A stretch of DNA of 64,000 bases from Cyanobacteria bacterium SIG26 (lineage in GTDB: Bacteria > Cyanobacteriota > Vampirovibrionia > Gastranaerophilales > Gastranaerophilaceae), in NCBI GenBank assembly GCA_015152555.1, contig SUTS01000003.1, positions 93,143 to 157,142 of the forward strand. The letters are read 5' to 3'. This document shows, one piece after another, positions 3,085 to 61,316 of this stretch. The notes beneath the pieces are model-generated. The model was not told the DNA's origin and searched no databases. It saw only the letters and a program-made list of their open reading frames with translations. Position 1 is the first letter of the stretch. Every line of letters begins with the position of its first letter. Position numbers and translations under genes: made by a program.

Positions 3085-3723
3085 TTATATATCCTCTCTA
3101 AATTTTAGCTCAGGTTCTGTTAATCTTGGAATTCCAGCCCATTTACGTTGATTTGCTTTTAGTGTTAACATTTTATCAATATCTTTTGGATCACAATCTT
3201 TTACGAGTTCAGATGCCCATTTGTCTATTCTTTTAAGATTTTCAGGCTGAAGAGTGTCACAAAAGTCTGTAAGTTTATTGAAAATATGTGCAAAAAAACC
3301 AACAGATTGTTGTGGCCATTCATTAGTATATATACCAACTGTTTCATTTAAGATTTTAACTTTTTTACCAATTGTCTTAAACCCCATATAATCTTTCCCG
3401 CCATAATATGCCTCATGTGCTCCGGCTATACTTTCATTTGTTTTTGTATTCACAAAGAAATAATAAAGATCCTTATTAATATGTGATTGTTTAGAGTGTT
3501 TAGATAAAACTAATGTTGTATCTGGGGATGTTTTTTTCATAAAAGTATCTAATTTCTCAAGAATTTTAGGTGCAGTTTCATTAACATAAGCTACATATTT
3601 TGAGTTTGGAGGATAATTTTTTATAACATCTTTTTGTACTTTCTTTACATATTTCACAAATGACTTATCAATAGAACCATTAAAATTAGTATTATAATCT
3701 GAATTTATTGCGTTAATTTTCAT
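3085..3723 (-). CDS. Unknown protein with N-terminal F-x-G leader (212 aa)
   Basis: The function is not recognised. The protein opens MKINAINSDYNTNFNG, a leader type shared with several otherwise different proteins in this window. The rest is mixed alpha/beta, with a Tyr/Gly-rich segment in the middle (AHEAYYGGKDYMGF) and a basic, Trp-containing C-terminus. It has no signal peptide and no transmembrane helix. AAAGG lies 9 nt upstream of the ATG. It is the only intact gene in the segment bracketed by the two tRNA-Phe 3' ends, so it is probably cargo of that island, though the same leader also occurs far outside it. Confidence 0.75.
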   Translation of the reverse strand: MKINAINSDYNTNFNGSIDKSFVKYVKKVQKDVIKNYPPNSKYVAYVNETAPKILEKLDTFMKKTSPDTTLVLSKHSKQSHINKDLYYFFVNTKTNESIAGAHEAYYGGKDYMGFKTIGKKVKILNETVGIYTNEWPQQSVGFFAHIFNKLTDFCDTLQPENLKRIDKWASELVKDCDPKDIDKMLTLKANQRKWAGIPRLTEPELKFREDI

Positions 3724-13910: not shown

Positions 13911-14696
13911 ATGCAAGTAAATTCAATTTCACCGCAAATGGTCTCAAAACAAACATTTGGCAATCAAAGAGGTTTCGATTTAAGAACGTTTGCTGAATTA
14001 GATGATATGTCAGTAAGAAAGCTAGCCGTAAGTGCAGCTTCTGAAAAAGTAAACTCTAAAAAACACAAAAGAATCAGTAATGCAATTATTTATAGCATTC
14101 CATTAGCAGCAGGTTTGGCTGCAGCTATTAAAAATCCGGCTTCAAGAATTGGCAGACTTGGTTCATTCGCTAAAACAGCAGCAGGATGGGGTGCAGGATT
14201 TGCAGTTATAGATTTAGCACTTAATGCTAAACATAAACTAGAAAAGAAAATGCCTAAAGCTCAAAAATTCAACAGAGAACACCCTGTGTTATCATTTATA
14301 GGCTCTATGGCTACAGCAGCAGTTGCATTATTTGCGGGTGGAAAGATCGCTAGCAAAGTTGCGAATTCAAAAGTATTTGCAAAGTACGCTAACAATGCAA
14401 TGACTAAAATCAAACCATTTATTAACAAGATTAGTGCACGTTTAGACGGAAGCAAACTTATTAATAAAGTTGCTGATATCGTAAAAACTGCACCTAAATC
14501 AGTAAAATCTATTGCAAAAGGTATTATCAACAATGGAATTTGGATTTTAGCAGGTACAAGTGTTGCTCATTCTATCGGTCACGAAAGAGCTAGAAATAAA
14601 GAATGTATCAATACATATATCGGGCTAAAAAATGCACAAGCGCAAATCAGAGACAAATTTGCAGAGATGGAAGAAGCTCAAGCTGAACAAGTTTAA
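13911..14696 (+). CDS. Unknown membrane-associated protein with F-G leader (261 aa)
   Basis: The start MQVNSISPQMVSKQTFGNQ belongs to the F-x-G leader group found on other unknown proteins here. After a basic region, hydrophobic stretches appear at about residues 60-80 (IIYSIPLAAGLAAAI), 85-105 and 125-145 (VLSFIGSMATAAVALFAGG), then an amphipathic Lys-rich middle and another hydrophobic stretch near residue 210. It has no cleavable Sec signal. A role at a membrane is likely but the function is unknown. It has its own promoter and a strong terminator, so it is monocistronic. The ATG at 13911 is preferred over the GTG two codons earlier because of ribosome-site spacing. Confidence 0.78.
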   Translation: MQVNSISPQMVSKQTFGNQRGFDLRTFAELDDMSVRKLAVSAASEKVNSKKHKRISNAIIYSIPLAAGLAAAIKNPASRIGRLGSFAKTAAGWGAGFAVIDLALNAKHKLEKKMPKAQKFNREHPVLSFIGSMATAAVALFAGGKIASKVANSKVFAKYANNAMTKIKPFINKISARLDGSKLINKVADIVKTAPKSVKSIAKGIINNGIWILAGTSVAHSIGHERARNKECINTYIGLKNAQAQIRDKFAEMEEAQAEQV

Positions 14697-32944: not shown

Positions 32945-33985
32945 CTAACCCACCACACTTTCTTTTTTAGGATCTAATACCTTTTCTCCTGTTGCACATT
33001 TATTTGGTTTTTTAGATAAATTTAAAGTATTTAAAACACCTAAAACAGTACTTAATGCAGCAACACCAATCAAAGCCTTGCCGGAATGCTTTTCAAACTT
33101 GGTAACAGCATCAGCACCACCGTTCCACAAACTTTTTGAAGCTTCAACAAAACTTTTTCCAAAAGCTTTTATAGAATCAGTAAAATCTCTACCTTTCCAG
33201 AACTTGAACGTTGCGACATTAAAATAATTAGACCACGAATCTTGAAAAGCTAATGCAACACCTGTTGCTGCCCACAAAAATGATGATATACTTTTTGCAA
33301 GCTTTGACTTAACCAAAACTTCTTTATAAACCGGTTTTACATCCTGATCCGAATCTTTAAGATTTTCGCCTAAACCTATTTTTTTTGCGATTTTATCGTA
33401 TCTAAAATTTAACGATTCACCCTTTTGTGGATTACCGTATAATTGATCCCAGCGGGGGAAATCAACACTTTCACCAACCTTATGATATTCAATACTTGTA
33501 AGATTATAGTCTTCTGGCGAGTTTTGTAATAAATAATTTACTTTCGCATAAGGGATTTCCGTGTCAATTCCGGTCCTTAATCTCACCGGCAAATTTACAA
33601 AACTCTTAGACATCTCCTTAAACAAACCATAAAACAACACACCCAATGCCATTTTATTACCAAGTTGCGAAGCCTTAAATTTGGCATTATGATTAAAGTA
33701 TTTATTTGCCGAATTAAACACAGCCATCAATGTCGCACTACCAACCAAATACGGCATAGTTCCCATTGTTAAAAATTCATAAAAATTAGAATTTATACTA
33801 CCTGTAATGCCTTTTGCAGGGTATATTGTAAAAGCCTTTGTAACCTTGTCTAAACCAATACGCGCTCTTGTTGATAAATTATTTTTCAACAAAGTATCTT
33901 TGTCAAACTCAGCCTCCTGAGCGACATTAGATTTATTCGCTTTAAAGTTTATATTCTCGTTATAATTCCTTATTGGTAATATCAT
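32945..33985 (-). CDS. Unknown membrane protein with F-x-A leader (346 aa)
   Basis: First gene of the amylase operon. It starts MILPIRNYNENINFKANKS, one of the F-x-(G/A) leaders. Hydrophobic stretches occur at about residues 75-95 (FLTMGTMPYLVGSATLMAVF), 115-130, 245-262 and 305-325 (GKALIGVAALSTVLGVLNTL). The middle holds LPVRLRTGI followed by FPRWDQLYG, shared in outline with the 844-aa neighbour. Function unknown. Genetic coupling to an amylase-like enzyme suggests polysaccharide handling or display at the envelope. A GGGG ribosome site precedes the ATG. Confidence 0.78.
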   Translation of the reverse strand: MILPIRNYNENINFKANKSNVAQEAEFDKDTLLKNNLSTRARIGLDKVTKAFTIYPAKGITGSINSNFYEFLTMGTMPYLVGSATLMAVFNSANKYFNHNAKFKASQLGNKMALGVLFYGLFKEMSKSFVNLPVRLRTGIDTEIPYAKVNYLLQNSPEDYNLTSIEYHKVGESVDFPRWDQLYGNPQKGESLNFRYDKIAKKIGLGENLKDSDQDVKPVYKEVLVKSKLAKSISSFLWAATGVALAFQDSWSNYFNVATFKFWKGRDFTDSIKAFGKSFVEASKSLWNGGADAVTKFEKHSGKALIGVAALSTVLGVLNTLNLSKKPNKCATGEKVLDPKKESVVG

Positions 33986-44490: not shown

Positions 44491-45552
44491 CTATTCTTCC
44501 ACAGAAGATTCATCTTCCGTTTTAGCTTTTCTGCCTCTTTTTTTCTTCGGAGCTTCTTCTGTTTCAGCCTCATCTGTTACATTGACTTTTGCAGCTTTTT
44601 TTGTTTTCTTTTCAGGTTCTGATTTTTGATTTTTAAACTCTTCAGGAGCGTCAGGGCGTTCTTGGTTCCAACGTTCCATACCCATTTGAGCTCGAACTAA
44701 ACCAATACCGACGTGAACACGCCACTCATCCATTTTTAACTGAGCTGCAATAATCTTATGGCAACCGATTGGAGGCAACGGTAATAATGGTTCATACAGC
44801 ATTTTTATTGCATTCATTTGATCAGGAGTAATCGCCAACTTACGTTTAGGGAACGGTAATTTAGGCAACATCATCTTTTGTCTGACCAAATTAATACCGA
44901 AAAACACTTTTCTTGGTTCTAAACCAATTTTTTCACCAATTACTTCATGCGCATCAGGATTAGGTAACGGCAACATCAACTTGTAAAGCAATTCAATTTG
45001 CTCTAATTGCTCTCTGCTAACCAACAATTGTTTAGGTGCAGCATTTCTGTTATTTGGTCTTCTATTATTAAATCTGTTATTTTGAGGCCTACGTTGAGCA
45101 AATCCACCACCTTGACGGTTGTATCCGCCACCTTGGCGATTATCTCTGTTATAACCTCCTTGGCGACTATTATTGTAACCACCTTGACGGTTGTATCCGC
45201 CACCTTGGCGATTATCTCGATTATATCCACCTTGGCGGTTATTGTTATAACCACCTTGACGAGGACCTCTATTATATCCGCCACCTTGGTTATCATATTG
45301 ACGTTGAGGCCTATTATACGGTCTTTGATTTTCATCACCACCACTAGAATAGCTACTATAGAATTGTGGTTTATCTTCTGTCGAATAACTGCTACGAGGA
45401 GCTTCTTGCTCCGGTAAAGCAGAAGATTCAGGAGCATCAGGAGCTCCAACCATCATTTTTTTATCCGGATACAAACAATCAGGACATATCACTCTTTTAG
45501 GGTTTTTTGTTTCAAACTCACGACCGCACTTAATGCACTTGTTTACATACAT
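44491..45552 (-). CDS. Zinc-ribbon, RGG-repeat protein with a duplicated helical domain (353 aa)
   Basis: An N-terminal zinc ribbon (Cys6, 9, 23, 26: CIKCGREF, VICPDC) is followed by an acidic Ser/Pro linker, then about 90 residues of Arg/Gly/Tyr/Asn repeats (units like RQGGYNRDN) typical of RNA-binding RGG boxes. Two copies of an approximately 55-residue domain follow: VSREQLEQIELLYKLMLPLP... and ITPDQMNAIKMLYEPLLPLP..., each ending with a (V/I)-x-x-GI-x-LVR motif. A Lys/Glu-rich tail ends in SSVEE. It is co-transcribed with rimM-trmD (2-nt gap), where rpsP or khpA often lie. I infer an RNA-related, probably ribosome-assembly, role. Confidence 0.8.
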   Translation of the reverse strand: MYVNKCIKCGREFETKNPKRVICPDCLYPDKKMMVGAPDAPESSALPEQEAPRSSYSTEDKPQFYSSYSSGGDENQRPYNRPQRQYDNQGGGYNRGPRQGGYNNNRQGGYNRDNRQGGGYNRQGGYNNSRQGGYNRDNRQGGGYNRQGGGFAQRRPQNNRFNNRRPNNRNAAPKQLLVSREQLEQIELLYKLMLPLPNPDAHEVIGEKIGLEPRKVFFGINLVRQKMMLPKLPFPKRKLAITPDQMNAIKMLYEPLLPLPPIGCHKIIAAQLKMDEWRVHVGIGLVRAQMGMERWNQERPDAPEEFKNQKSEPEKKTKKAAKVNVTDEAETEEAPKKKRGRKAKTEDESSVEE

Positions 45553-49700: not shown

Positions 49701-50378
49701 GTGAAAATACTACCGATTGCACTCGCTGACAATAATGCACAAAAAACTAGTTTTAAAGGTCAAGCAACTAACGCGTTTTATAAAAGACTTTTCAATCAAA
49801 CACAAAGCACCGAGACGATAAATCGTTTTGCAAAATTCCTTAAAACCATCGGTGATGAGTTTTTGGTTGATACACTTGAAAGTCAAGGTAGTACCGTAAG
49901 CCTTACCACTGTAAAATCATTGCCCCCACTGAGATATGAATCCTCAATGGCAAAGGATACAGTTGAAGCACTATACACCATAGAAAATAAATCTTTTGGG
50001 GTAAACAAGGCGCTTTTACAGCACTACGCCCAAAGTGCGGAACGCAAACCTTTTACTATTTCTGATAAAATAATAGCAGCTGCTGATATCGCGGATTTGA
50101 GAGAAGATTGCCGTGCTATTATGAAATACCAAAGAGAACATAATGTCGGATATAAAAAAGGAGAAGATTTAGTATTTTCTTGGGCTCGTGTTAAAAGAAA
50201 CTTAAAAATCAACGATATAAACCCTAACCCAATAAAAAATGAAATTAAGCTTGCCCGCGAACTAAAAGCTGATACTGAATTACGCGCAGTTAAAAGAGCT
50301 GAATATCGTGAAGAACAAAACAAATCACAACCTAAAACATCCACTTGGAACAAAATTAAAAAATTCTTTGGTAGCTAA
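49701..50378 (+). CDS. Unknown protein with F-x-G leader (225 aa)
   Basis: Begins (GTG start) MKILPIALADNNAQKTSFKGQA, a member of the F-x-G leader group. The rest is helical and basic, with a Lys/Arg-rich C-terminal third (LRAVKRAEYREEQNKSQ, then WNKIKKFFGS). It has no signal peptide and no clear membrane helix. AGGGGGAA lies 6 nt before the GTG, which decides the start. It is single-gene, between repeat-filled intergenic regions. The function is not recognised. Confidence 0.72.
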   Translation: MKILPIALADNNAQKTSFKGQATNAFYKRLFNQTQSTETINRFAKFLKTIGDEFLVDTLESQGSTVSLTTVKSLPPLRYESSMAKDTVEALYTIENKSFGVNKALLQHYAQSAERKPFTISDKIIAAADIADLREDCRAIMKYQREHNVGYKKGEDLVFSWARVKRNLKINDINPNPIKNEIKLARELKADTELRAVKRAEYREEQNKSQPKTSTWNKIKKFFGS

Positions 50379-50495
50379 ACAAAAAACATTACTGTATTTT
50401 AACGAGTTGTAAGGGGGCAATTTATTGCAGCCAAACAATAATCAAATTCACTGTTCTTTCTTTTCAAACCGACTGTTAAAATGCACTAAATCATA

Positions 50496-50770
50496 GCGGT
50501 TGGAAGTGAGTTTAAAAAATAATTTTCAAACTGGACGAAAACGGTCTTTTGATGGACTTTGTTTTCCATTTTTATAAACCCCTCACCCGCCCTTTGGGCA
50601 CCCTCTCCCAGAAGGGGCGAGGGTAACAAAAGTACTTTTTGGGAATATTGAAAAATTATATTTGTTTGGGTTTCACCCAACCTACTAACTAACCCCTCAC
50701 CCAACCCCTCTCCCTAAGGAGAGGGCGCTTGAGCCAAGTCCGTAAAAAGTCTCTTTTGAGAATTTTGAAA
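50496..50770. repeat. Dispersed intergenic repeat, long copy
   Basis: Two modules in order. The first, at 50496-50575, reads GCGGTTGGAAGTGAG..., ending GGACTTTGTTTTCCAT. The second, around 50700-50770, has CCCTCTCC/GGAGAGGG-like stems and then CTTGAGCCAAGTCCGT. The same two modules recur in the same order at 51616-51828. No coding frame. Confidence 0.65.
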
Positions 50771-50884
50771 ACATAGTGATAAACAATAAATGAGGTTGAC
50801 TCGGTGAAGTAGACCTATAAACTACTACTTGAGTATATATTGGTAAGCTAATTGGTTATGCAGAAGAACAATAAAATATTATAA

Positions 50885-50912
50885 AAAAAAGAGCCAAATG
50901 GCTCTTTTTTTA
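50885..50912. terminator. Rho-independent terminator
   Basis: AAAAAAGAGCC (50885-50895), loop AAAT, GGCTCTTTTTT (50900-50910). It ends the minus-strand gene at 50930. Confidence 0.85.
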
Positions 50913-50929
50913 TAAATATAGATTTTGAA

Positions 50930-51469
50930 TTAACCTTCGACTATAAATTGATTTAGCAAATTATCTGCCAACTCTGAACGTTTTTCCTCATTTGCTTTTA
51001 TTGCAGCTTCTTTAGCTTCCTTATATGCTTTCTCAGCTTCAAAAGCTTTTGTAAGTGCTGTTAATTTTTCAACTTCATTTTCTGCACTTTGCAATGCTAC
51101 TAGACGGTCTGCAGCATCATTCGCAGGAAGAAAAATTTTAATCTTTGTTGGTATGTCATCTTCTAATAGAGAAACATCAAATGTACGTAGATTTGAGTCA
51201 CCATATCCAGCTAAAATAGGTTCATTTAGATTTACTTCTGGTCTTGTATATTTATTAAAAATTCTATCACAAAGCCCCTCAGATACATATAAACCATCGC
51301 GATCTGCAATTAAATGATAAAATTTAGTATCTTTCAATTCATTTCCAGCTTTGTTTAATTGTTGTAAAGTTTTCAATGATTGTTCTTTTACCCAATTAGC
51401 ACCACCAGGACTTTTGATTTTTAAAGCCATACCGAAATTTTGTTGAGACATGTTGTTGTTAATTTGCAT
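50930..51469 (-). CDS. Unknown protein with F-G leader (179 aa)
   Basis: Begins MQINNNMSQQNFGMALKIKSPGGANW, an F-G leader. The central part is alpha/beta (FYHLIADRDGLYVSEGLCDRIF, FDVSLLEDDIPTKIKIFLPAND). The last 60 residues are a Glu/Lys/Ala coiled coil (EVEKLTALTKAFEAEKAYKE). No Sec signal and no membrane helix. AAAGGA precedes the ATG. The layout, with a leader, a small fold and a helix, is like the proteins at 57810 and 60609, though the folds are not obviously the same. Confidence 0.74.
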   Translation of the reverse strand: MQINNNMSQQNFGMALKIKSPGGANWVKEQSLKTLQQLNKAGNELKDTKFYHLIADRDGLYVSEGLCDRIFNKYTRPEVNLNEPILAGYGDSNLRTFDVSLLEDDIPTKIKIFLPANDAADRLVALQSAENEVEKLTALTKAFEAEKAYKEAKEAAIKANEEKRSELADNLLNQFIVEG

Positions 51470-51615
51470 CGTTTTAATCCTTTCTAAACTTAGTTTCTAT
51501 CTGTAAAAAAACTATAAAAAAAAATTTTGCCAAATGTTTTTAAAATATTAAAATATGTTAACAAATATTTTGGGTTTGTCGGTTGGGCATACTTGCCCAA
51601 CAATACTAAATTATG

Positions 51616-51828
51616 GCGGTTGGAAGTGAGTTGAAAAACATATTTTAAAACGGACAAAAACGGACTTTTATTGGACTTTATTTTCCATATCACCCCACCT
51701 TAATCACCTCTCAGCAAACGTGACATTTAGTCACCTTTGCTTCGGCAGAGTCCATCCAGGGAGGAAATCTAGACTGATTCTATATTTACTCCCAAGTCCA
51801 TAAAAGTCACATTTGGGAATTTTGATTT
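51616..51828. repeat. Dispersed intergenic repeat, long copy 2
   Basis: Same modules as 50496-50770: GCGGTTGGAAGTGAG... with GGACTTTATTTTCCAT (51616-51688), then CCCAAGTCCATAAAAGTCAC (51791-51810). The middle has diverged. No coding frame. Confidence 0.65.
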
Positions 51829-51890
51829 TAAAAAGGTGCGTATAAACGCACTCTACAAACTTTTAGGCAAACTTCCTCTCAGGGGATAAA

Positions 51891-51927
51891 AAAACAAGAA
51901 GTCGGGTTAAACCCGACTTCTTGTTTT
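51891..51927. terminator. Very strong bidirectional terminator
   Basis: Perfect 17-bp arms (51891-51907 and 51911-51927) with a 3-nt loop and flanking A and T runs, ending the 51930 gene. Confidence 0.9.
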
Positions 51928-51929
51928 TA

Positions 51930-52475
51930 TTAAAACGTATATTGTGTAGCTTGATTTATTCCATTAACTACCCTTTTTATCCAATCTCCATATACAGGAA
52001 TCCAAGATGTAAATTTTACAATTGTGTCAACTACTTTTTGCGTACCTGGGTTATTCCAAAATTTTCTAAAACCATTCCAACCCTTTCTTAGCCAATCCAT
52101 AAAACCTTTTGTTTGAACAGTTTGATCATTTTCATCACCAATTTTAAATTTTTTCACATCATCGATTAAGGTATTTGACCTTTCTACAACGTTAAGCTCG
52201 TTAAGCGCTTGAACTGCCGCTGCCGCAATTTCACCAGTAAGCTCAGGTTTGATATCAACAACTTGTGGGGTTTTATTTGTTGAAATAATATTAATCCCCA
52301 TATTTGCCAAGTATTGTTCTGTTGTTGCATTTCCATAATTTGCCGCTTGTGTTGATTGTTGGGTTGCTTGTTGAACTTGTTTTTCATCTTCCTGTTTTAC
52401 AACTTGTAATTTTTTTGTAGTATCTTGTAAATTCACAACTTTACGTTGTGCTGCCAAATTTCCGCTAATGTTCAT
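51930..52475 (-). CDS. Unknown protein with NLxAQR leader (181 aa)
   Basis: The start MNISGNLAAQRKVVNLQD resembles the start of the amylase-like protein (MINVSTNLIAQRVNLAK). A Gln-rich disordered stretch follows (residues 25-60). The C-terminal 50 residues are aromatic and amphipathic (GFMDWLRKGWNGFRKFWNNPG, FTSWIPVYGDWIKRVV) and could insert into or lie on a membrane; that part is reminiscent of pore-forming or membrane-active peptides. AAGGAG precedes the ATG. No Sec signal. Function unknown. Confidence 0.72.
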   Translation of the reverse strand: MNISGNLAAQRKVVNLQDTTKKLQVVKQEDEKQVQQATQQSTQAANYGNATTEQYLANMGINIISTNKTPQVVDIKPELTGEIAAAAVQALNELNVVERSNTLIDDVKKFKIGDENDQTVQTKGFMDWLRKGWNGFRKFWNNPGTQKVVDTIVKFTSWIPVYGDWIKRVVNGINQATQYTF

Positions 52476-52702
52476 AATAAACTCCTTAAAATCTTAATAT
52501 CCTAGTCTGGTGTGCTGCACATTTTTATATACGGCATTGACTCTAAAGAACTTTAATTTAAATTAAACAAATTAACGAACATAAGACCCTAAATATAGCT
52601 CAAACATAGGAAATATAAGAAAAAATCCAAGTTTACAAATCTTCATATTATAAACTTATCCTATAGACTAAAGCACCTATACAGAATAAAAAAAATATAT
52701 AT

Positions 52703-53704
52703 CTACGAATATAATCTATCTAAAATTGCAGCAACACCAACTCGCTTATCTTTGGTTGATGCACTATACTTACCATCAGCTACATACATACCGCCCGTAT
52801 ACTTGGTTGTACCGGCCCATACATAAGGTGATGCCACACCTCGCTTACGGTAGCCTAAACCATTATATCGTTCCGCAAAATCTAATTGACTTGATAAATC
52901 TGAACTTTTTACATTTTTATAAGCGCTTTGTGATTTTATCGCATGAATAGCCGCTTCTGTCCAATCGTGGAATAATAATCCTTTTGGCACAACGGTAGTT
53001 CGCTTACCAAGCTTTTGTCCGTTATGTAAGTAGGTTGTAAAATCACAACCACCTTCTCTATAATGAATCGCACAAATCAATTCTGCAGGAACACCTGTCG
53101 CTTGAGCAACTTTATCATATTTTGCTTTATTTTCAACGAATATTTTTTCAATTCTTTCAAGTTCTTGTTTATTGGAACCGGATAATGATAAGCTATAATT
53201 ACCACCAAGCTTCGGTTTAACTGTGCTTGAAGCATTATTTGATGTTGATTGTTGAGATTTTTGAGGGTTCAGAAAACTATAATTACTAGAACCTATAGAT
53301 GATACATTAAATACCGGAGGCTGCATTAAGCTTGGTATATTAAAAAACTGTGCTGCAGCATCATTAGAGAGAGCTCCACTCGTAAAGTTTGGAACTCCAA
53401 ATGACAAAGATTCAATAGGATTTGTAATTGTTGGAGTTTGGATATTAAATTTAAATCCTGATGATAAACTTTGGAATGACATATCCAAATCAACATAGTC
53501 AACATCAAAGCCATAAGAATAATCCAACGAAGAACTATTCAAATTCCAATTAAAACCACCTGTATTCAGCGTAGGAACACTTGAACTATTATAAAAACTG
53601 AACAATAGCGGATTCATACCTGCTGAATTAACAGGTGCTGTACCAAAAGTATCATACATATTATTTATATTATTTTGTAGATTACCCCAAGATGATACAA
53701 ACAT
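52703..53704 (-). CDS. Lysozyme-like peptidoglycan hydrolase, copy 1 (333 aa)
   Basis: The C-terminal 150 residues match a lysozyme-like family known from phages and diderm bacteria: PAELICAIHYREGGCDFTTYLHNGQKLG with the likely catalytic Glu in HYREG, FHDWTEAAIHAIKSQ, FAERYNGLGYRKRGVASPYVWAGT and GGMYVADGKY. The first 170 residues are Ser/Asn/Phe-rich and low-complexity (MFVSSWGNLQNNINNMYDTFG). No Sec signal is present, so if the enzyme acts on cell walls it needs another export route. AAAGGGG precedes the ATG. A paralogue lies at 56865. Confidence 0.85.
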   Translation of the reverse strand: MFVSSWGNLQNNINNMYDTFGTAPVNSAGMNPLLFSFYNSSSVPTLNTGGFNWNLNSSSLDYSYGFDVDYVDLDMSFQSLSSGFKFNIQTPTITNPIESLSFGVPNFTSGALSNDAAAQFFNIPSLMQPPVFNVSSIGSSNYSFLNPQKSQQSTSNNASSTVKPKLGGNYSLSLSGSNKQELERIEKIFVENKAKYDKVAQATGVPAELICAIHYREGGCDFTTYLHNGQKLGKRTTVVPKGLLFHDWTEAAIHAIKSQSAYKNVKSSDLSSQLDFAERYNGLGYRKRGVASPYVWAGTTKYTGGMYVADGKYSASTKDKRVGVAAILDRLYS

Positions 53705-53786
53705 GAAATCCCCTTTAATATTCCTACATATATAAAAAAAAAAATCTAACCTGGAATTGCGTATTTTATTAAATTATGTTACAAAC

Positions 53787-54986
53787 CTAATTGAACGACC
53801 CGTTTCTAAATATATTCATAAAAATGTTATAATTATTTGATTTTTTATAATCTTCTGCAGCCTGTTCTCCTGCTTTTCGTGCATCAATTTCTAATAAATT
53901 ATTTCTATATCTCGGGTCATCGAAACTAGTTTTAGCCATATTCGGATAAATCCTTATAGCATAAGCATATTCTTTCGCAAGTTTAATCAAATTTGCATCT
54001 GATAATTCTCCGAGCAATATTTTTGCAGAAGATTCATAAGGACTATTAACAAAGCCAGCTCTACCGGCTATTGCATGTTGCCAAGCATGTTCAACTTCGT
54101 GCGCAGCATCACATACAATACATTCCGGTAGAATAAATTTTCTTTCATTATGATTCATTGAAATAGAACCATTTACCGACTCAAAATAAGCTCGACCGCT
54201 ATCATATTCATGAAACCCAGTATATACAGGTATATTAAGTTTTTCCAAGCCTTTTTGCTTGAGATAATATTCAGTTATGGAACGAGCACCAATCGAAGAT
54301 TTCGGATTTAAAATCCTATAAGGTAAAAATTTGTCATCTATATCTAAATTTAAATTCTTTGAATATTTTAAATCAGATAATTCAACCCCATCATATTTTG
54401 ATTGAATTATTGCAGATAAAAATGATTTTTCACTATCTTTTTTAGTACCCTTTGAAGTTTTCACAAGCTCTGGATATTTCACTAATTCATATTTCCAAGT
54501 AGGACAATCCACCCCAGACTCCGGAGTCATCGTCCTTGATGTAACAATAAACTTTTTCCCCCTATCAATCTCATACGATAAAACATGTAATGTTTTATTT
54601 TTAACAAATTGCCACGCTCCTAATACTCTATCCCCAAAATTTGATTTTCCTAGGGGAATAAATTTATCTATTGCAAAATTTCTTGTATTAACAAAATATG
54701 AAACAAAAATCCTTTTATAATAATTATTATCTTTAAAAAACAAATAATAAATTGGTCTTTTTTTATTATCATAAAAGGTTAAAAGTTCTTTTGATGAAGT
54801 TTCATCGGAATTTTTCACAAGCTTCAAATAAGAAAAAGTATCAGCATTTGGGGATATTTCAAGGCCTAACTTATTATCATATTGATTTATCGGAAGAAAA
54901 TCCTTACGTTCAGCTAACTTATAAGGCCTAACTTTCGCTTTTGTTGAAATATTAAAAATATTTTTTAACGGAGTAAATATAGACAT
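53787..54986 (-). CDS. HEVEH metalloprotease-like protein (399 aa)
   Basis: Residues 296-300 are HEVEH in AAHEVEHAWQHAIAGRAG, a zinc-peptidase H-E-x-x-H motif, with EIDARKAGEQAAEDY some 60 residues later offering a Glu/Asp third ligand. The N-terminal 250 residues are beta-rich and unrecognised. No signal peptide is visible (MSIFTPLKNIFNISTKAKV). No clear ribosome site precedes the ATG. It sits between the lysozyme-like gene and a divergent unknown gene. The zinc-site reading is good; the peptidase family is unassigned. Confidence 0.75.
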   Translation of the reverse strand: MSIFTPLKNIFNISTKAKVRPYKLAERKDFLPINQYDNKLGLEISPNADTFSYLKLVKNSDETSSKELLTFYDNKKRPIYYLFFKDNNYYKRIFVSYFVNTRNFAIDKFIPLGKSNFGDRVLGAWQFVKNKTLHVLSYEIDRGKKFIVTSRTMTPESGVDCPTWKYELVKYPELVKTSKGTKKDSEKSFLSAIIQSKYDGVELSDLKYSKNLNLDIDDKFLPYRILNPKSSIGARSITEYYLKQKGLEKLNIPVYTGFHEYDSGRAYFESVNGSISMNHNERKFILPECIVCDAAHEVEHAWQHAIAGRAGFVNSPYESSAKILLGELSDANLIKLAKEYAYAIRIYPNMAKTSFDDPRYRNNLLEIDARKAGEQAAEDYKKSNNYNIFMNIFRNGSFN

Positions 54987-55115
54987 TTTTAACCATTTAT
55001 TAATTACTTATCTATAATAAATCGAAACAAAAATAAATTTGCGCAATAAAATTTAATAAACTAGCAAAATTTATAAAAAAAATGGTTTATAACAAATAAA
55101 ATTAGGAGCACAACA

Positions 55116-55799
55116 ATGATAACCCCTACTCCAATTACACCCCCGTACGTATCACAAAAACAAACTTATCAGCAAAACAATAACAGAAAAACGTCAGTTA
55201 TTGCCAGTTGCATTGGAATTGGAGCAGGTATACTTTGCTATAAAAAATCAAATAACCTTCTTAAACTAGGAAAGAAAATTTGCAACGTAATCACAAGTTT
55301 ATTCAATAAAAAACACACAAAACCTTCAAATAACATATTCACAACAAACCCTCCTACAGTCTTTAATATAGGGCCAAACCTTCGAACAAAAATAAGCAAT
55401 AAAATCCAAGAATATTTAAACAAGAACATAGGTAAAGAAATCGATCCGGCAAAACTTGATGAAATTTTAACCAAATTAGCAGGAAAAAATAATACTGTAG
55501 AATTAAACTTTTACGAAAATCCACTAATCGGGGTAACAAAAGGTAGAAAAAAAGCATATAGATTTAAAGACGGCACAGAAATCCATCTTGAATGCCACAC
55601 CAGCAGACACGGAACAGTCACAAGAGTATATGACGCCAAAGAAAACGGTATAGCAGTCGGAAAACCTGACAGAAGCTATCTACATCCTGACGGCACATTT
55701 AGCGAAAACGCCTACATAAAGGGAAACGCTCATTTACAATCAGGCGAAATTGGTGAAATTTGGATATCTAATGCACCCCCATTTAACAAAATAGCATAA
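55116..55799 (+). CDS. Unknown protein with one membrane segment (227 aa)
   Basis: A Pro/Thr/Gln-rich start (MITPTPITPPYVSQKQTYQQ) is followed by a hydrophobic stretch (SVIASCIGIGAGILCY, about residues 28-43), a basic segment, and a C-terminal globular part of about 120 residues with FKDGTEIHLECHTSRHGTVTRVYDAKENG and a His/Asp-rich, beta-like pattern. That part might be a toxin or enzyme domain, but I cannot place it. AGGAG precedes the ATG. It is followed 24 nt later by the kinase-like gene. Confidence 0.7.
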   Translation: MITPTPITPPYVSQKQTYQQNNNRKTSVIASCIGIGAGILCYKKSNNLLKLGKKICNVITSLFNKKHTKPSNNIFTTNPPTVFNIGPNLRTKISNKIQEYLNKNIGKEIDPAKLDEILTKLAGKNNTVELNFYENPLIGVTKGRKKAYRFKDGTEIHLECHTSRHGTVTRVYDAKENGIAVGKPDRSYLHPDGTFSENAYIKGNAHLQSGEIGEIWISNAPPFNKIA

Positions 55800-55810
55800 A
55801 ATGTTTGTAT

Positions 55811-55816
55811 TATAAT
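55811..55816 (+). promoter_or_regulatory. -10 box 6 nt before the kinase-like ATG
   Basis: Perfect TATAAT, then 6 nt, then ATG at 55823; no Shine-Dalgarno. Leaderless candidate. Confidence 0.4.
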
Positions 55817-55822
55817 AAGACT

Positions 55823-56797
55823 ATGCTTAGTCGAATACAAAACACAACGCAACAATTATATTACCCCACAAGATTGAAGAGATTTTTTCAATCACATTTA
55901 AACAGCCAAAAATATACAAAAATCATTCCAAATATTAAACAAGCAACTGTTGGAAGCCTTCCTACTGAAATTATAAAAGCATTTGACGGCAAAAAATCTA
56001 CTAATTCAAAAATTTTTCTAAGAGCACTTGCTGACATTACAAAATTTTTACGCGCAACATACCTGAATCTAAACGGGAGTTTTGAATACAATTTAAATAA
56101 ACTACCTAAAGATATAGTGCAAAATTTTGAAAGAAAAGCAAGCAATCTCTTTACTAATAATATAAAACATTTATTCCCGTCCGGAACAACCGCAGAAATA
56201 AAATTTGCCGGCAAAGGTGAATTTGGTTCAGTTTATCAAATATCATTATTTGATAAAAACAAGAAAAAACTTATGCACGACAAGGCATTAAAAGTTTACC
56301 ATTCAATAATCGACAAAGAAGAAGGATGGCATTCCGCACACGGTAATTATGCAGAAGCTAACTTTTGGACATACATTAAATATCATGCCGGACATTCCCT
56401 TTCTAAAACTCAACTAACAAAACATTATTTATCAGATATGAAAAGTGGCTACGCACTGACTGAATTTATAGATGAAGACATCACAAAAACAACTTCTCCA
56501 TTGAACATAAAGGGATTATTCAAAATCCGAAACCAAGATATTTTTGGGAACAAACCTATACTCGGTAAACTTTATGACGTCGGGCTGTTCTTTAAAGAAA
56601 AAAATTTCACAGGGGATAAAATGGTGTTAAGATATCTAAAAAAATTATACTACCGTTCTGAAAAAGATTTAAAACCGTTTTTCGAGGGATTATTAGATCA
56701 ATCCCAAAACCCTAAAAACGAACATCGAAATAAAATAAAAACAGCAATAGAAATTTTTAAAGAAAGATTCCCTGAGCGAGAAGATTGGTTAAAATAA
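55823..56797 (+). CDS. Protein-kinase-like protein (324 aa)
   Basis: After an unrecognised N-terminal 125 residues, a kinase N-lobe appears: FAGKGEFGSVYQI (glycine loop, about residues 128-140), KALKVYH with the ATP-binding Lys near 154, EANFWTYIKY as the alpha-C Glu, and GYALTEFIDEDI as the hinge. In the C-lobe the usual HRD and DFG motifs are not obvious; NQDIFGNKP and KLYDVGLFF may be degenerate versions. It could be an effector-type kinase or a pseudokinase. No signal peptide. The ATG at 55823 is preferred; the region before it is a promoter-like box. Confidence 0.65.
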   Translation: MLSRIQNTTQQLYYPTRLKRFFQSHLNSQKYTKIIPNIKQATVGSLPTEIIKAFDGKKSTNSKIFLRALADITKFLRATYLNLNGSFEYNLNKLPKDIVQNFERKASNLFTNNIKHLFPSGTTAEIKFAGKGEFGSVYQISLFDKNKKKLMHDKALKVYHSIIDKEEGWHSAHGNYAEANFWTYIKYHAGHSLSKTQLTKHYLSDMKSGYALTEFIDEDITKTTSPLNIKGLFKIRNQDIFGNKPILGKLYDVGLFFKEKNFTGDKMVLRYLKKLYYRSEKDLKPFFEGLLDQSQNPKNEHRNKIKTAIEIFKERFPEREDWLK

Positions 56798-56864
56798 CTC
56801 TCAAATTACGCAGCTCATTAAAGATAACAACTTTAAAGATAGATTCATTCAAGCCTTAAAAACC

Positions 56865-57689
56865 CTAAGCTAATTCTTCTCCATATAAAGTTGTTAATAT
56901 AGCAGCAACTCCAATACGCTTATCTTTACAATTCGGGTCAAATTTCTTATCTGCAACATACATGCCTGAAGAATAGACATCAGTACCGCCCCAAACATAA
57001 GGGGAGACATGACCGTTTTTACGATAACCAACACCATTATATCTTTCTGCAAACTCTAATTGGGTGCTTAAAAAATCACGATTAACGTTTTTATAATACG
57101 ACTGCGATTTAATAGCATCAATTGCAGCTTTTGTCCAATCTGTAAAAAATTTACCTTTGGGGGTTATAGTTGTTTTTTTACCAAGTGGTTGGCCGTTATG
57201 TAAATATGTTCCAAAATTACAACGTCCTTCTCTGTAATGAATTGCACAAATCAATTCCGGAGGTATTCCAGTTGCATCAGAAACTTCTTTATACCTATCA
57301 TAATTTTCTTTAAAAACATTTGATACAAAAGATAATTCTTCCTCTTGAGCCTCTGTTAATGTTAGATTATATCCTGATTCAATATACTTACTACTATGTA
57401 AATTTGATGCTTTAAGTAACGCCCAGTAAGAATCAGCATCCATTACACCTAAAGGTGAAAATGGATCATTAAAATCGGTTGTTTTAAATCCGTAATCTTC
57501 AACATCAAGGCTGTAGTATGATGAAAGCATATCACCCAAAGATTGAGGTTTAAAGGACAAACTATTATTGTTATTATCAAATAGCAATCCCTGAGGTTTA
57601 GTTTTATCCTTACTGGAGCTTGAAGATGTTCCTCCAGCCGTATTGGCGGAATAAAAAGCACTATTTATGTCTAATTCACCATTACTCAT
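56865..57689 (-). CDS. Lysozyme-like peptidoglycan hydrolase, copy 2 (274 aa)
   Basis: A paralogue of the 52703 protein. The C-terminal domain shares PPELICAIHYREGRCNFGTYLHNGQPLGKKTT, FTDWTKAAIDAIKSQ, FAERYNGVGYRKNGHVSPYVWGGT and SGMYVADKKF, including the catalytic HYREG Glu. The N-terminal 110 residues are again Ser/Asn/Asp-rich and differ from copy 1. There is no Sec signal when started at 57689, where AAAGGA lies 7 nt upstream; the longer in-frame start would add a spurious hydrophobic stretch. Confidence 0.84.
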   Translation of the reverse strand: MSNGELDINSAFYSANTAGGTSSSSSKDKTKPQGLLFDNNNNSLSFKPQSLGDMLSSYYSLDVEDYGFKTTDFNDPFSPLGVMDADSYWALLKASNLHSSKYIESGYNLTLTEAQEEELSFVSNVFKENYDRYKEVSDATGIPPELICAIHYREGRCNFGTYLHNGQPLGKKTTITPKGKFFTDWTKAAIDAIKSQSYYKNVNRDFLSTQLEFAERYNGVGYRKNGHVSPYVWGGTDVYSSGMYVADKKFDPNCKDKRIGVAAILTTLYGEELA

Positions 57690-57809
57690 AATCAATCCTT
57701 TCGCAATATTTACTATATATATAAAAAATATATACATAATAAAATTGTGGAATTGAGATTATGATATTAATAAAACTTCACAATTGCAACAAATTATACA
57801 AACAAATAT

Positions 57810-58337
57810 CTAAACGTCATCACCCGAAATAGGCATGAGATTATCAATATAATACATTGCTTTATCATAAATAGCTTTATCAAAGCGATCAAGAAGTTCC
57901 GTTTGCAAGCCGGAACGATTACCGTCATTTTTAACTCCGGAAACCATCCTTGCCATAAAAGAATAAAGAGGTAATCTTTCTCGACTAGTCAATTCAACAT
58001 CTATTCCATTGAGTTTAAAACTTGAATTAACAACCTTTTTTTTATTACCTTTTTCAACAAATGTTTGTCTCAATATCAAATCTACAGAATCAGGCATATC
58101 AGATCTTACGCAAAGCTCTTGTAGATTTGCACTGGTTTGAGATAAATATTCTTTGAATGAAGATAAATCCGCACCATTTTCATCATCGTTTAATTTTGCA
58201 CTAACCTTTATCCATTCAGTTTGTTTCTTGCCGACCTTAACTTCAGCATTTTGATCTATGTAAGAACCCATAATAGATTCAGGAACGACCTTGCGTCCAA
58301 TAAATACATCTTTATAACCGCTAAATGAAATATTCAT
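57810..58337 (-). CDS. Unknown protein with F-S-G leader (175 aa)
   Basis: Opens MNISFSGYKDVFIGRKV, the shortest of the F-x-G leaders. The rest is mixed alpha/beta with no Cys pairs: VKVGKKQTEWIKVSAKLNDD, LRQTFVEKGNKKKVV, SFKLNGIDVELTSRERLPLYSFM. No Sec signal or membrane helix. AAGGAA precedes the ATG. It lies between lysozyme copy 2 and the MlaA fusion, all on the minus strand but with gaps of 48-120 nt. Function unknown. Confidence 0.72.
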   Translation of the reverse strand: MNISFSGYKDVFIGRKVVPESIMGSYIDQNAEVKVGKKQTEWIKVSAKLNDDENGADLSSFKEYLSQTSANLQELCVRSDMPDSVDLILRQTFVEKGNKKKVVNSSFKLNGIDVELTSRERLPLYSFMARMVSGVKNDGNRSGLQTELLDRFDKAIYDKAMYYIDNLMPISGDDV

Positions 58338-58385
58338 AAAAATTTCCTTATCTACACAAAATAAAACCTCTAAAAAAATTTTTTG

Positions 58386-60512
58386 CTACCTTGTTGCAAG
58401 TTTTTTAACTAAAATAGAAGTAATCGTTTCGTTTAAATCATCAATAAACTCTTTTCTGTACAAAAAGCCTAAATGCGCACCGTTATCAAACAAAACAGTC
58501 CTTTTACCCGTATAATCTTTCAATTTGCGTAATTGATTTGTATTTGTTAAATAATCATTCAATGAGTGATAAATTTTATAATCCTGACTATATGCCAAAA
58601 AATCGGCTATAGAATGTAAACTCACCTCATAAGACAAATCTTCAACATTATCATTTAAACCTGACAATAAATATTTTTGAGTATAATTTTGATAATTCAT
58701 ATTATTTAACCTATCATAAATATCTGATTTTTTAGATTTTGGAACATTTTCCATCGTATAAACAAGATCTGACAATTTTTGATGCATAATAAACCCTGTA
58801 ATCAATTTTGCTTCATCTTCAGAAAAAGGTAGTGAATTAATTTCTTCAGTTATCGACTCTTTGACATCTAATAATTTTTGAACTTTTGCCGCAGTAAGAG
58901 CAACTTTTTCTTTAAATTCATCAGGAGACTTGTTCCAATCTTCAGAATTTTTATCAATCTGTTTCATTGCAAAAATCAAATCTATCGGAGGACAAATTGC
59001 AATATAATAAGCATCACCCAACATAGAATATCTCGACTCTTTTTCTGCGACGAACAATGTAGCTAAAGCTCCAAAAGATGTCCCTATTAATACTTTATGA
59101 GAAAACACACACCCGTACTTTTCACCTAATGATTCTAAAATTTTTGCAGTTAAATTTCGCAAGGACTCAGCATCTTTAACCGGCAACCCCGGTTTATAAC
59201 CTTCCGGCATACTTTTAACAAATTCCCATTGGAAATGACTACCTTGAATTATTACCGAATACCCTTTATCATAAAATAATTTACCTAATAAAACAGAATG
59301 ATAAGACATAATACCTTCACCTATTGAGGGATAAACAATAACAACAGGAGCATTTTTATCTTTTTGCAAAATATACCGATAAGAATATTCTTCTCGCCCA
59401 TCAGCAACAGATACAGTTGAGGTTTTTATACGTTTACTAAAACTTCTGTTCCAAATTGATAATTCATTCCAAATAGATTCATCTACACCAGGGAGATTAA
59501 ATAAAGCTGTACGCATAGAATCAATAACAGGATGTTGCGGATTATAATCAATAAGAAAAACATCAGCACCTAATTTAAAATCCTCGGTAGTAAAATCTTT
59601 TAGGATTTCATCAATATTAGCACCGCCTTTTAACACATCAGCACCAACAACTTCAGAATAAACTTCTGTTTTAACGACATTTGCCGGCTTTGGTAGCACA
59701 TTTTCAGGTTTTTGAACCCTAATAACTTCTTTTTTATCTTCAACAGGAGTAACATTTTGCTTTTTGACATTTAAGTCTTTTTTCACATCAACTCTATCAA
59801 GATTTAAACATTTAATATAAGTATCAAGCGCATAAGCCTTTTTGGCAACTTCATAAGGATCTGCATAAGTTGATTCAAACATTTGCCATAAAGGCTGAGA
59901 GTAAGCACTTTTATTTAACGTTAACCCTGCTTTAACGATAGCTAAAACAGGGGTTGCAATATAACATCCCGGATTTAAAGCGGTATCTAAAATTTTACCT
60001 AAAATTCCACGAGCAGTTACAAAAGACAAAACCGGCAAAACAAATAACGAACCGGCTTTCATATTACAACCGGCCAAAGCTTGCTCCATATTTTCTTTAG
60101 ATTGCTCAATATCAAATAAACGTTTTGCAGGATCAAACATCCCACCTAACCCTAATATCGTATTTGTAAAAAACCTTACAGTCTCATTTTTAGAGGTTTC
60201 AAAATCTTTTTGAATAAGACTACTAACAAGCCTGATTGGATATTCTATATTATTAGAAATCCCACGAATTCTATCCATACAGTATTCCGGCATAATAGAT
60301 GACCACAACACATGAACAGGTCTCAAGAAATATTTATTCAAACCCAAGTTGAAATTAAACATTTTTCTATTTAAATTTTCATGTTTATCCTCGCCTATAA
60401 ATTCCTGAGCATAATCAGGATATTTTGTATCTAAAGCACAATCACCTTTTGTGTATATATTAAAAACAAAGCATAACAAAAGGAGGAAAATTACAAACCC
60501 TTTTTTAATCAT
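58386..60512 (-). CDS. MlaA-type domain fused to an alpha/beta hydrolase (708 aa)
   Basis: A signal peptide (residues 1-26) is followed by an MlaA/VacJ domain at about 35-240: ENLNRKMFNFNLGLNKYFLRPV, NNIEYPIRLVSSLIQKDF, RFFTNTILGLGGMFDPA. MlaA sits in the outer membrane and removes surface phospholipid. After a linker (240-325) comes an alpha/beta hydrolase: VVIVYPSIGEG, the nucleophile elbow GTSFG (Ser479) and a late His in DNGAHLGFLY. MlaA is normally about 250 aa and free-standing, so the fusion is unusual. The enzyme may act on lipid extracted by the first domain. GAGGA precedes the ATG. Confidence 0.85.
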   Translation of the reverse strand: MIKKGFVIFLLLLCFVFNIYTKGDCALDTKYPDYAQEFIGEDKHENLNRKMFNFNLGLNKYFLRPVHVLWSSIMPEYCMDRIRGISNNIEYPIRLVSSLIQKDFETSKNETVRFFTNTILGLGGMFDPAKRLFDIEQSKENMEQALAGCNMKAGSLFVLPVLSFVTARGILGKILDTALNPGCYIATPVLAIVKAGLTLNKSAYSQPLWQMFESTYADPYEVAKKAYALDTYIKCLNLDRVDVKKDLNVKKQNVTPVEDKKEVIRVQKPENVLPKPANVVKTEVYSEVVGADVLKGGANIDEILKDFTTEDFKLGADVFLIDYNPQHPVIDSMRTALFNLPGVDESIWNELSIWNRSFSKRIKTSTVSVADGREEYSYRYILQKDKNAPVVIVYPSIGEGIMSYHSVLLGKLFYDKGYSVIIQGSHFQWEFVKSMPEGYKPGLPVKDAESLRNLTAKILESLGEKYGCVFSHKVLIGTSFGALATLFVAEKESRYSMLGDAYYIAICPPIDLIFAMKQIDKNSEDWNKSPDEFKEKVALTAAKVQKLLDVKESITEEINSLPFSEDEAKLITGFIMHQKLSDLVYTMENVPKSKKSDIYDRLNNMNYQNYTQKYLLSGLNDNVEDLSYEVSLHSIADFLAYSQDYKIYHSLNDYLTNTNQLRKLKDYTGKRTVLFDNGAHLGFLYRKEFIDDLNETITSILVKKLATR

Positions 60513-60608
60513 AAAATCCTCATAACAAATTTATATCTTCGGCAATATAAATTGTATTACGAGCAAACATTTAACATATTACCCGATAGAATAAGATATA
60601 CACATTAA

Positions 60609-61316
60609 CTATACTAATCTTGGTTCAAAGTCTGCATCAATCAACTTATAAGTTGTTTTTTTACCTCTTATAATAGGTTCAAAAACGGCAGAAAATACAG
60701 TATTCGCAGGATCTGCTTTAGCTTCCGGACTTCTCAATATATTCAAAACCGAATTATGATATGCAACTTTTGCATCCGACAAATTTTGTTCTAACTCTTT
60801 TGCAGCTTTTTCCTTCGCCTCAGAATATTTAAAACCGTAAAACATCTGTAAATCTTCAGCTAACCTGTTTACATCAGAGTGTATCTGCTTAATTTTATTA
60901 GCCTGTACATCCAAAATATCAACAGACTTTCCCGTAAAAATATACGGTTTTAAAACACCTTTGCTATCAGTATAATAATAGGAAGAAACCCTATCTTGAT
61001 TTGGTTGTTTATAATCATTATCTCTATTTCTAAAAAATCGCGTAATACGCTCTCTGATAGCTTGGGTTTCCGGAGTTTCGGGCTTAGATTTCACCGGAGA
61101 ACATTGAGCGACTTTTAACCTTGCATTATAATTTCGATTTAGCCAAGTTACAATATTTTTTTGAAGAGTATTTTTTATCAAATCATTATCTGTAATCAAT
61201 CTAAAAGAATCCTCACCGACTTTTTCAAAATACAAACACGGATGAATAGCACCAAAAGACGGTTTATAATTGTTATTTTTTGAATAATCAGTAACTTTAA
61301 CAGATGTAATATTCAT
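60609..61316 (-). CDS. Unknown protein with F-G leader (235 aa)
   Basis: Starts MNITSVKVTDYSKNNNYKPSFG, an F-G leader, followed by AIHPCLYFEKVGEDSFRLITDNDLIKNTL. The middle is basic (RERITRFFRNRDNDYK) and the C-terminal half a Lys/Glu/Ala helix (AEDLQMFYGFKYSEAKEKAAKELEQN) with a short beta end. No Sec signal. The start is the ATG at 61316, with GAGGTG just upstream. It is upstream of the MlaA fusion on the same strand. Not recognised. Confidence 0.73.
   Translation of the reverse strand: MNITSVKVTDYSKNNNYKPSFGAIHPCLYFEKVGEDSFRLITDNDLIKNTLQKNIVTWLNRNYNARLKVAQCSPVKSKPETPETQAIRERITRFFRNRDNDYKQPNQDRVSSYYYTDSKGVLKPYIFTGKSVDILDVQANKIKQIHSDVNRLAEDLQMFYGFKYSEAKEKAAKELEQNLSDAKVAYHNSVLNILRSPEAKADPANTVFSAVFEPIIRGKKTTYKLIDADFEPRLV

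Follow-up and report, generated by a model that had tools for sequence, protein, structure and literature searches.

Do unrelated proteins encoded in one stretch of a gut bacterial genome share an N-terminal address? This question is raised by a window of 64,000 nucleotides from Cyanobacteria bacterium SIG26 (positions 93,143 to 157,142 of contig SUTS01000003.1), which is part of a 1.86 Mb draft genome. A sequence-only reading of the window had reported that seven proteins of different build, named here after their genes at 3085, 13911, 32945, 49701, 50930, 57810 and 60609, begin with F-G or F-x-G-type heads, and re-reading the sequence we found such a head on all seven N-termini. As described below, a functional N-terminal tag very probably exists, and the head is likely to behave like a short linear sorting tag carried by many unrelated proteins.

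The sequence-only reading had described the head as a bare F-x-G-type pattern and had named a frequency at N-termini no higher than composition predicts as grounds for giving it up. Among 384 called genes, the rate of bare F-x-G near N-termini was about the same as the rate elsewhere, with F-G at residues 6-10 as the lone exception (13 counts, 6.8 per 1000 vs 2.9), and in this form the pattern is not enriched. The full head consists of M-x-[I/V]-x-x-[I/V], a variable polar spacer and F-x-[G/S/A], often with K/R next, and this fuller head is found more often than by chance. A first weight matrix was trained on 19 heads of the 13911 family only, the homologues of which were drawn from 60 genomes of the SIG26 family (35 of the 60 match). 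With this matrix, 10 of 379 other N-termini of SIG26 scored at least 10 bits (3/60 in the window and 7/319 in the sample), where windows placed at internal Met residues predict 0.6 and shuffling the N-termini of these genes predicts 0.8. The score was also reached by 7/541 N-termini in six further genomes of the family, and by 2/674 in eight genomes outside it.

A second matrix, in which 20 heads of a GNAT family were added to the 13911 heads, was scored on non-Sec genes with an ATG and a ribosome-binding site, Sec-like N-termini being excluded by a simple rule. In the window and the first SIG26 sample together, 16/282 proteins carried the head (0.39 expected); a second SIG26 sample gave 2/170 (0.37 expected), the density of heads being uneven. 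The tagged share amounts to about 4-6% of the non-Sec SIG26 proteins sampled. Samples of seven other family genomes gave 0/66, 4/67, 1/69, 0/57, 2/62, 0/67 and 3/65, so that three of them showed no head at 10 bits. In 80 named loci, which are the best 80 of 183 and were found through the gene of an FlhA-C-like protein described below, the head was present in 69/871 proteins vs 4.9 expected. Random samples from eight genomes of the SIG26 family (Candidatus Gastranaerophilales) contained 28/905 heads, compared to 1/574 in 11 genomes of six sister families (Fisher 2e-5). Among the sampled genomes of the class, the head is enriched in one family only.

Furthermore, the two anchors of the head are coupled. 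I/V/L occupied position 3 in 17 of 23 SIG26 proteins with the F motif, compared to 63 of 243 others. The same coupling was seen over eight family genomes (22/42 vs 149/584), and it was absent outside the family (4/25 F-motif proteins vs 79/382).

Orthologues with bodies that are about 30% identical keep both anchors, while the length of the spacer drifts. In 20 members of the 13911 family (mean body column identity 0.30), V/I/L was found at position 3 in 19/20 and I/V/L at position 6 in 20/20. F followed by G or by x-G/S/A was found in 20/20, with F anywhere at residues 10-17; these F counts are conditional, because F was located with that very pattern. K/R followed F-x-[GSA] in 11 of 15 countable cases. 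Four of 27 homologues (in L124, L133, L136 and L141) have no head, although the start in L124 is perhaps miscalled. In an alignment of 34 sequences with the GNAT body, F11, S13, N15 and P17 are invariant and the spacer varies, but overall the head of this family is no more conserved than the body (0.50 vs 0.58). In the 50930 family, the head is far better conserved than the body, as listed below; the search for this family gathers proteins with exact words in common.

Two AlphaFold models have confident bodies, with a mean predicted local distance difference test score (pLDDT) of 84 and 92. Residues 2-10 of the 50930 protein and residues 1-9 of the second model have a pLDDT below 50, and the residues before F are thus predicted to be disordered in both proteins. 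The F anchor (residues 12 and 11) borders the fold, in the blocks 11-20, which have a pLDDT of 75 and 78. A start that is conserved yet predicted to be disordered looks like a short linear recognition motif.

The seven named heads of the window are as follows:

3673..3723, minus strand: head MKINAINSDYNTNFNGS of protein 3085-3723 (212 amino acids); scores 14.3 bits with the matrix trained on 13911 heads; the fetched sequences contain no homologue.
13911..13964, plus strand: head MQVNSISPQMVSKQTFGN of protein 13911-14696 (261 amino acids); by eye, the head is kept by 23/27 homologues found by their bodies.
33935..33985, minus strand: head MILPIRNYNENINFKAN of protein 32945-33985 (346 amino acids); below 6 bits with the 13911-trained matrix.
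49701..49763, plus strand: head MKILPIALADNNAQKTSFKGQ of protein 49701-50378 (225 amino acids, GTG start); 7.2 bits; no homologue in the fetched sequences.
51425..51469, minus strand: head MQINNNMSQQNFGMA of protein 50930-51469 (179 amino acids); identity among 17 sequences 0.86 in the head and 0.33 in the body.
58317..58337, minus strand: head MNISFSG of protein 57810-58337 (175 amino acids); not long enough to be scored by the matrix; the fetched sequences contain no homologue.
61248..61316, minus strand: head MNITSVKVTDYSKNNNYKPSFGA of protein 60609-61316 (235 amino acids, ATG at 61316); 17.6 bits.

Among the six named genes other than 13911, four reached at least 6 bits (3085, 49701, 50930 and 60609), with 32945 below. 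The single homologue of 32945 (62% identity) nevertheless keeps the head, reading MILPVSNFNKHIKFKGK. Both homologues of 60609 keep a head as well (F-V-A and F-T-S) on bodies that are 27-29% identical, and homologues of this protein are present in 3 of 60 family genomes, SIG26 included. Across the seven proteins, the F anchor lies at residues 5-21. As read from the sequence, none of the seven heads has a Sec-type hydrophobic core near the N-terminus, in agreement with the earlier claim that a Sec signal is absent from all of them. None of the seven proteins matched Pfam over the curated cut-off or NCBIfam at E 0.01.

To what kinds of protein is the head attached? With the head removed, blastp at E 1e-3 sorted 105 head-bearing proteins (at least 9 bits, flhA neighbourhood excluded) into 38 body families, 17 of which have members in SIG26; by eye, several of the 105 are chance or Sec-like hits, such as an IspD-like protein or a Sec-type leader. 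Pfam matched over cut-off in 6 of 24 proteins counted as tagged, some of the 24 by eye. The tagged bodies assigned in this way are GNAT, CheR and acyltransferase in SIG26, GH77 and mTERF in genome G022 and HD in genome G115. The mTERF family is mainly eukaryotic, and we count its tagged member in favour of export. That unrelated bodies share the head is thus borne out by the blastp families and by the unrelated Pfam domains. The idea of a targeting or secretion tag holds in part: a short conserved head on non-homologous bodies is tag-like, but bare F-x-G was too narrow a description and the fuller two-anchor head is needed. In two tagged proteins (L004:14908-15618 and L036:16282-17010), the head precedes a Sec-like hydrophobic segment.

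A candidate exit is encoded in the same genomes. FlhA, of the flagellar-type export gate, was matched in 80 of 118 genomes of the class, including 45/45 of the SIG26 family (44 at full length). Each of these 45 genomes has at least two FlhA matches, and the second matches listed are confined to the substrate-docking, cytoplasmic domain (profile about 304-656, with open frames about 484-513 codons long). The FlhA-C-like protein of SIG26 (L094:10140-11621, 493 amino acids) matches FHIPEP positions 309-653, the matched part being C2:96554-97585. Flagellin was matched in 21 of the 118 class genomes and in 0/45 of the family. In a separate sample of 30 family genomes, FlhB was found in 30/30 and FliD in 12/30. 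SIG26 encodes FlhA and FlhB, with no flagellin match, no FliD match and one Flg_bbr_C match. Because of these counts, the family appears to carry the export gate throughout, while the filament is apparently missing in many genera and a flagellum stands alongside the gate in some. Partial flagellar gene sets, with conflicting inferences on motility, have been described in this order (PMC5877343), and at least one loss of flagella has been inferred there (PMC4451040). Genomes of families f3, f8 and f9 have flagellin together with a pair of full-length FlhA matches, so that a second type III gate may be of ancient origin within the class.

The genes ahead of flhA in SIG26 resemble fliE, fliF and fliG by eye, and the operon is flanked by seven tagged genes in two tandem clusters. 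Tagged genes are more frequent near this flhA (7/45) than elsewhere (18/452; p 0.004), with the limit that the clusters are not independent. In genome G060, the gene adjoining flhA is tagged and starts MINKIGLQTNNKAFGAKL. In addition, a gene of GH77 size lies directly after the FlhA-C-like gene in 38 of 79 named loci, 30 of these being headed at the called start; one such protein was given to Pfam. Separately, another N-terminus recurs, reading MG-(M/L)-AASQAR-(F/L)-L or close to it, at L015:8731, L096:830, L245:1401 and L095:2131. By eye, it resembles the starts of proteins associated with the flagellar hook or filament, and its carriers are possible exported structural proteins.

What, then, could the head be for? 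We tentatively favour that the tagged proteins are putatively exported through a type III apparatus that derives from a flagellum and is predicted to have no filament. The two-part N-terminal peptide would act as a sorting signal that feeds tagged proteins to the gate, perhaps being read via the separate FlhA-C-like protein. Tagged enzymes needing coenzyme A or S-adenosylmethionine would then act in the cytosol of a neighbouring cell and not in the medium. We favour export by such an apparatus because it fits the position of the head, its predicted disorder, the aliphatic residue at position 3, the lineage-specific nature of the bodies and the lack of any other obvious cargo for the gate. Since FlhA and FlhB are encoded and flagellin and FliD were not matched, a flagellar-type gate also requires fewer assumptions than a new route. 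Features described for type III substrates include an aliphatic residue or Pro at position 3/4, no D/E in residues 2-12 and a Ser content of 10% or more over the first 50 residues (PMC3338616). An aliphatic residue or Pro at position 3/4 was found in 19/23 F-motif proteins of SIG26 compared to 113/243 others (p 0.0009). The Ser content was enriched (11/23 vs 57/243, p 0.02), yet reached in under half of the F-motif proteins. The complete picture, in which this gut Melainabacteria family would use an undescribed address code, putatively read by an FlhA-C-like adaptor, and would deliver lineage-specific enzymes and membrane proteins via a filament-less flagellar machine, is doubtful when all its parts are taken together.

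Several observations speak against export through the flagellar-type gate. Acidic residues are not depleted, as D/E is absent from residues 2-12 in 9/23 F-motif proteins and in 78/243 others (p 0.49). Several tagged proteins, with multiple hydrophobic stretches, resemble membrane proteins. FliE-like and FlgB-/FlgC-like rod proteins of SIG26, recognised by eye, are without the head, and in genomes G022, G115 and G109 no tagged gene was found beside the flhA operon. In the GH77 arrangement, the second anchor is F-x-R-R/K/H, and the 38 loci represent one ancestral gene order, not 38 events. Some of the 12 family genomes with FliD may also have a real flagellum. The head was found in 0/139 proteins of family f5 and 0/82 of family f6 in the genomes sampled; since both families have FlhA, with no flagellin match, the gate is not sufficient for the tag. 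Finally, the F anchor could partly serve the fold, because it borders the folded part in both models.

Docking inside the cell is nearly as likely as type III export, and is likewise a tentative proposal. The head would here tether enzymes of many kinds, as well as membrane proteins, to a single hub in the cell, such as the FlhA-C-like protein, a pole or the inner membrane, and nothing would be exported. Such a role suits the GNAT, CheR, acyltransferase, HD and GH77 bodies, which would use cytosolic cofactors or substrates, and the membrane proteins too. Moreover, the distribution of the head matches the family, like that of the FlhA-C-like protein, and not the distribution of the gate. However, the hub is hypothetical, no common pathway is visible among the bodies, and many of them are lineage-specific, as seen for 60609.

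It is very unlikely that the tagged proteins are clients of another envelope translocase, for example an Omp85-type pore, with the head acting like a short plastid transit peptide. The K/R that often follows F-x-[GSA] in the 13911 family is loosely like the FGLK and FP-RK motifs (PMC5571161), but the head has only about 7-35 residues and begins at residue 1, the receptor and pore are hypothetical, and plastid peptides drive import, so that the direction would differ. We give as little credence to an effect of translation initiation or codon composition at AT-rich starts: untagged SIG26 proteins also show I/V/L at position 3 (26%) and N-rich starts (40%), but the shuffled N-termini gave less than one head where ten were seen, and the F anchor persists although its distance from the start varies. 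Least probable of all is that the bodies are homologous and the head merely inherited, for although some tagged proteins are paralogous (the FGMAL proteins and the sets beside flhA), there are 38 body families, even if distant homology of small proteins may escape blastp, and inheritance is excluded for the Pfam-assigned bodies, the domains of which are unrelated.

If the head is an export signal, candidate secreted or injected proteins of this gut lineage can be listed by reading their N-termini, and the cargo of a filament-less flagellar apparatus becomes a directly testable question. If it is an intracellular tag, it represents a peptide address system common to many unrelated proteins in one bacterial family.

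A few other proteins were noted along the way. The proteins at window positions 28676-30409 and at L013:16049-17716 are alpha-amylase-like and 5'-nucleotidase-like; their N-termini are long and polar, and neither a Sec signal nor an F-x-G head is visible in them. Those at window positions 52703-53704 and 56865-57737 have very similar C-terminal ends and N-termini that look unrelated, with no Sec signal seen; the 52703 protein scored 7.2 bits for the head. The protein at window positions 44491-45552 has a zinc-ribbon-like start followed by a long run of GGYNR-type repeats.

How does the head compare to known N-terminal signals? Type III effector signals, as described in PMC3338616, are like the head in being N-terminal and disordered with an aliphatic residue or Pro at position 3/4. 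In that account, effectors share no sequence motif, whereas the head does and its acids are not depleted; a mutant effector without all three listed patterns was still secreted. The head may work like a type III signal, but we do not file it as one, because a listed feature, acid depletion, was tested and not found. Early flagellar subunits are reported to combine an N-terminal hydrophobic signal with a gate recognition motif, the order and spacing of which matter; the second motif of FlgD is located at residues 36-40, and export is blocked if the spacer is shortened (PMC8983047). The head likewise has two separated N-terminal anchors, the first made of small non-polar residues at the extreme N-terminus. 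It differs in its second motif, F-x-G/S/A, the F of which comes about 5-33 residues from the start; rather than near residues 36-40, F is found at 10-17 in the 13911 family and at 5-21 in the seven window proteins. Like the plastid transit peptides with FGLK and FP-RK described in PMC5571161, the head combines an aromatic residue, a turn and a basic residue in an unstructured leader, but it is much shorter and fixed at the protein start. Filament-less basal bodies of Buchnera have been proposed as exporters, and a type III system is described for Myxococcales (PMC3459982). A cargo tag is not among the features described for these systems in that source, and in the present case the cargo is only inferred; what they have in common with SIG26 is a flagellum-derived export apparatus without motility parts.

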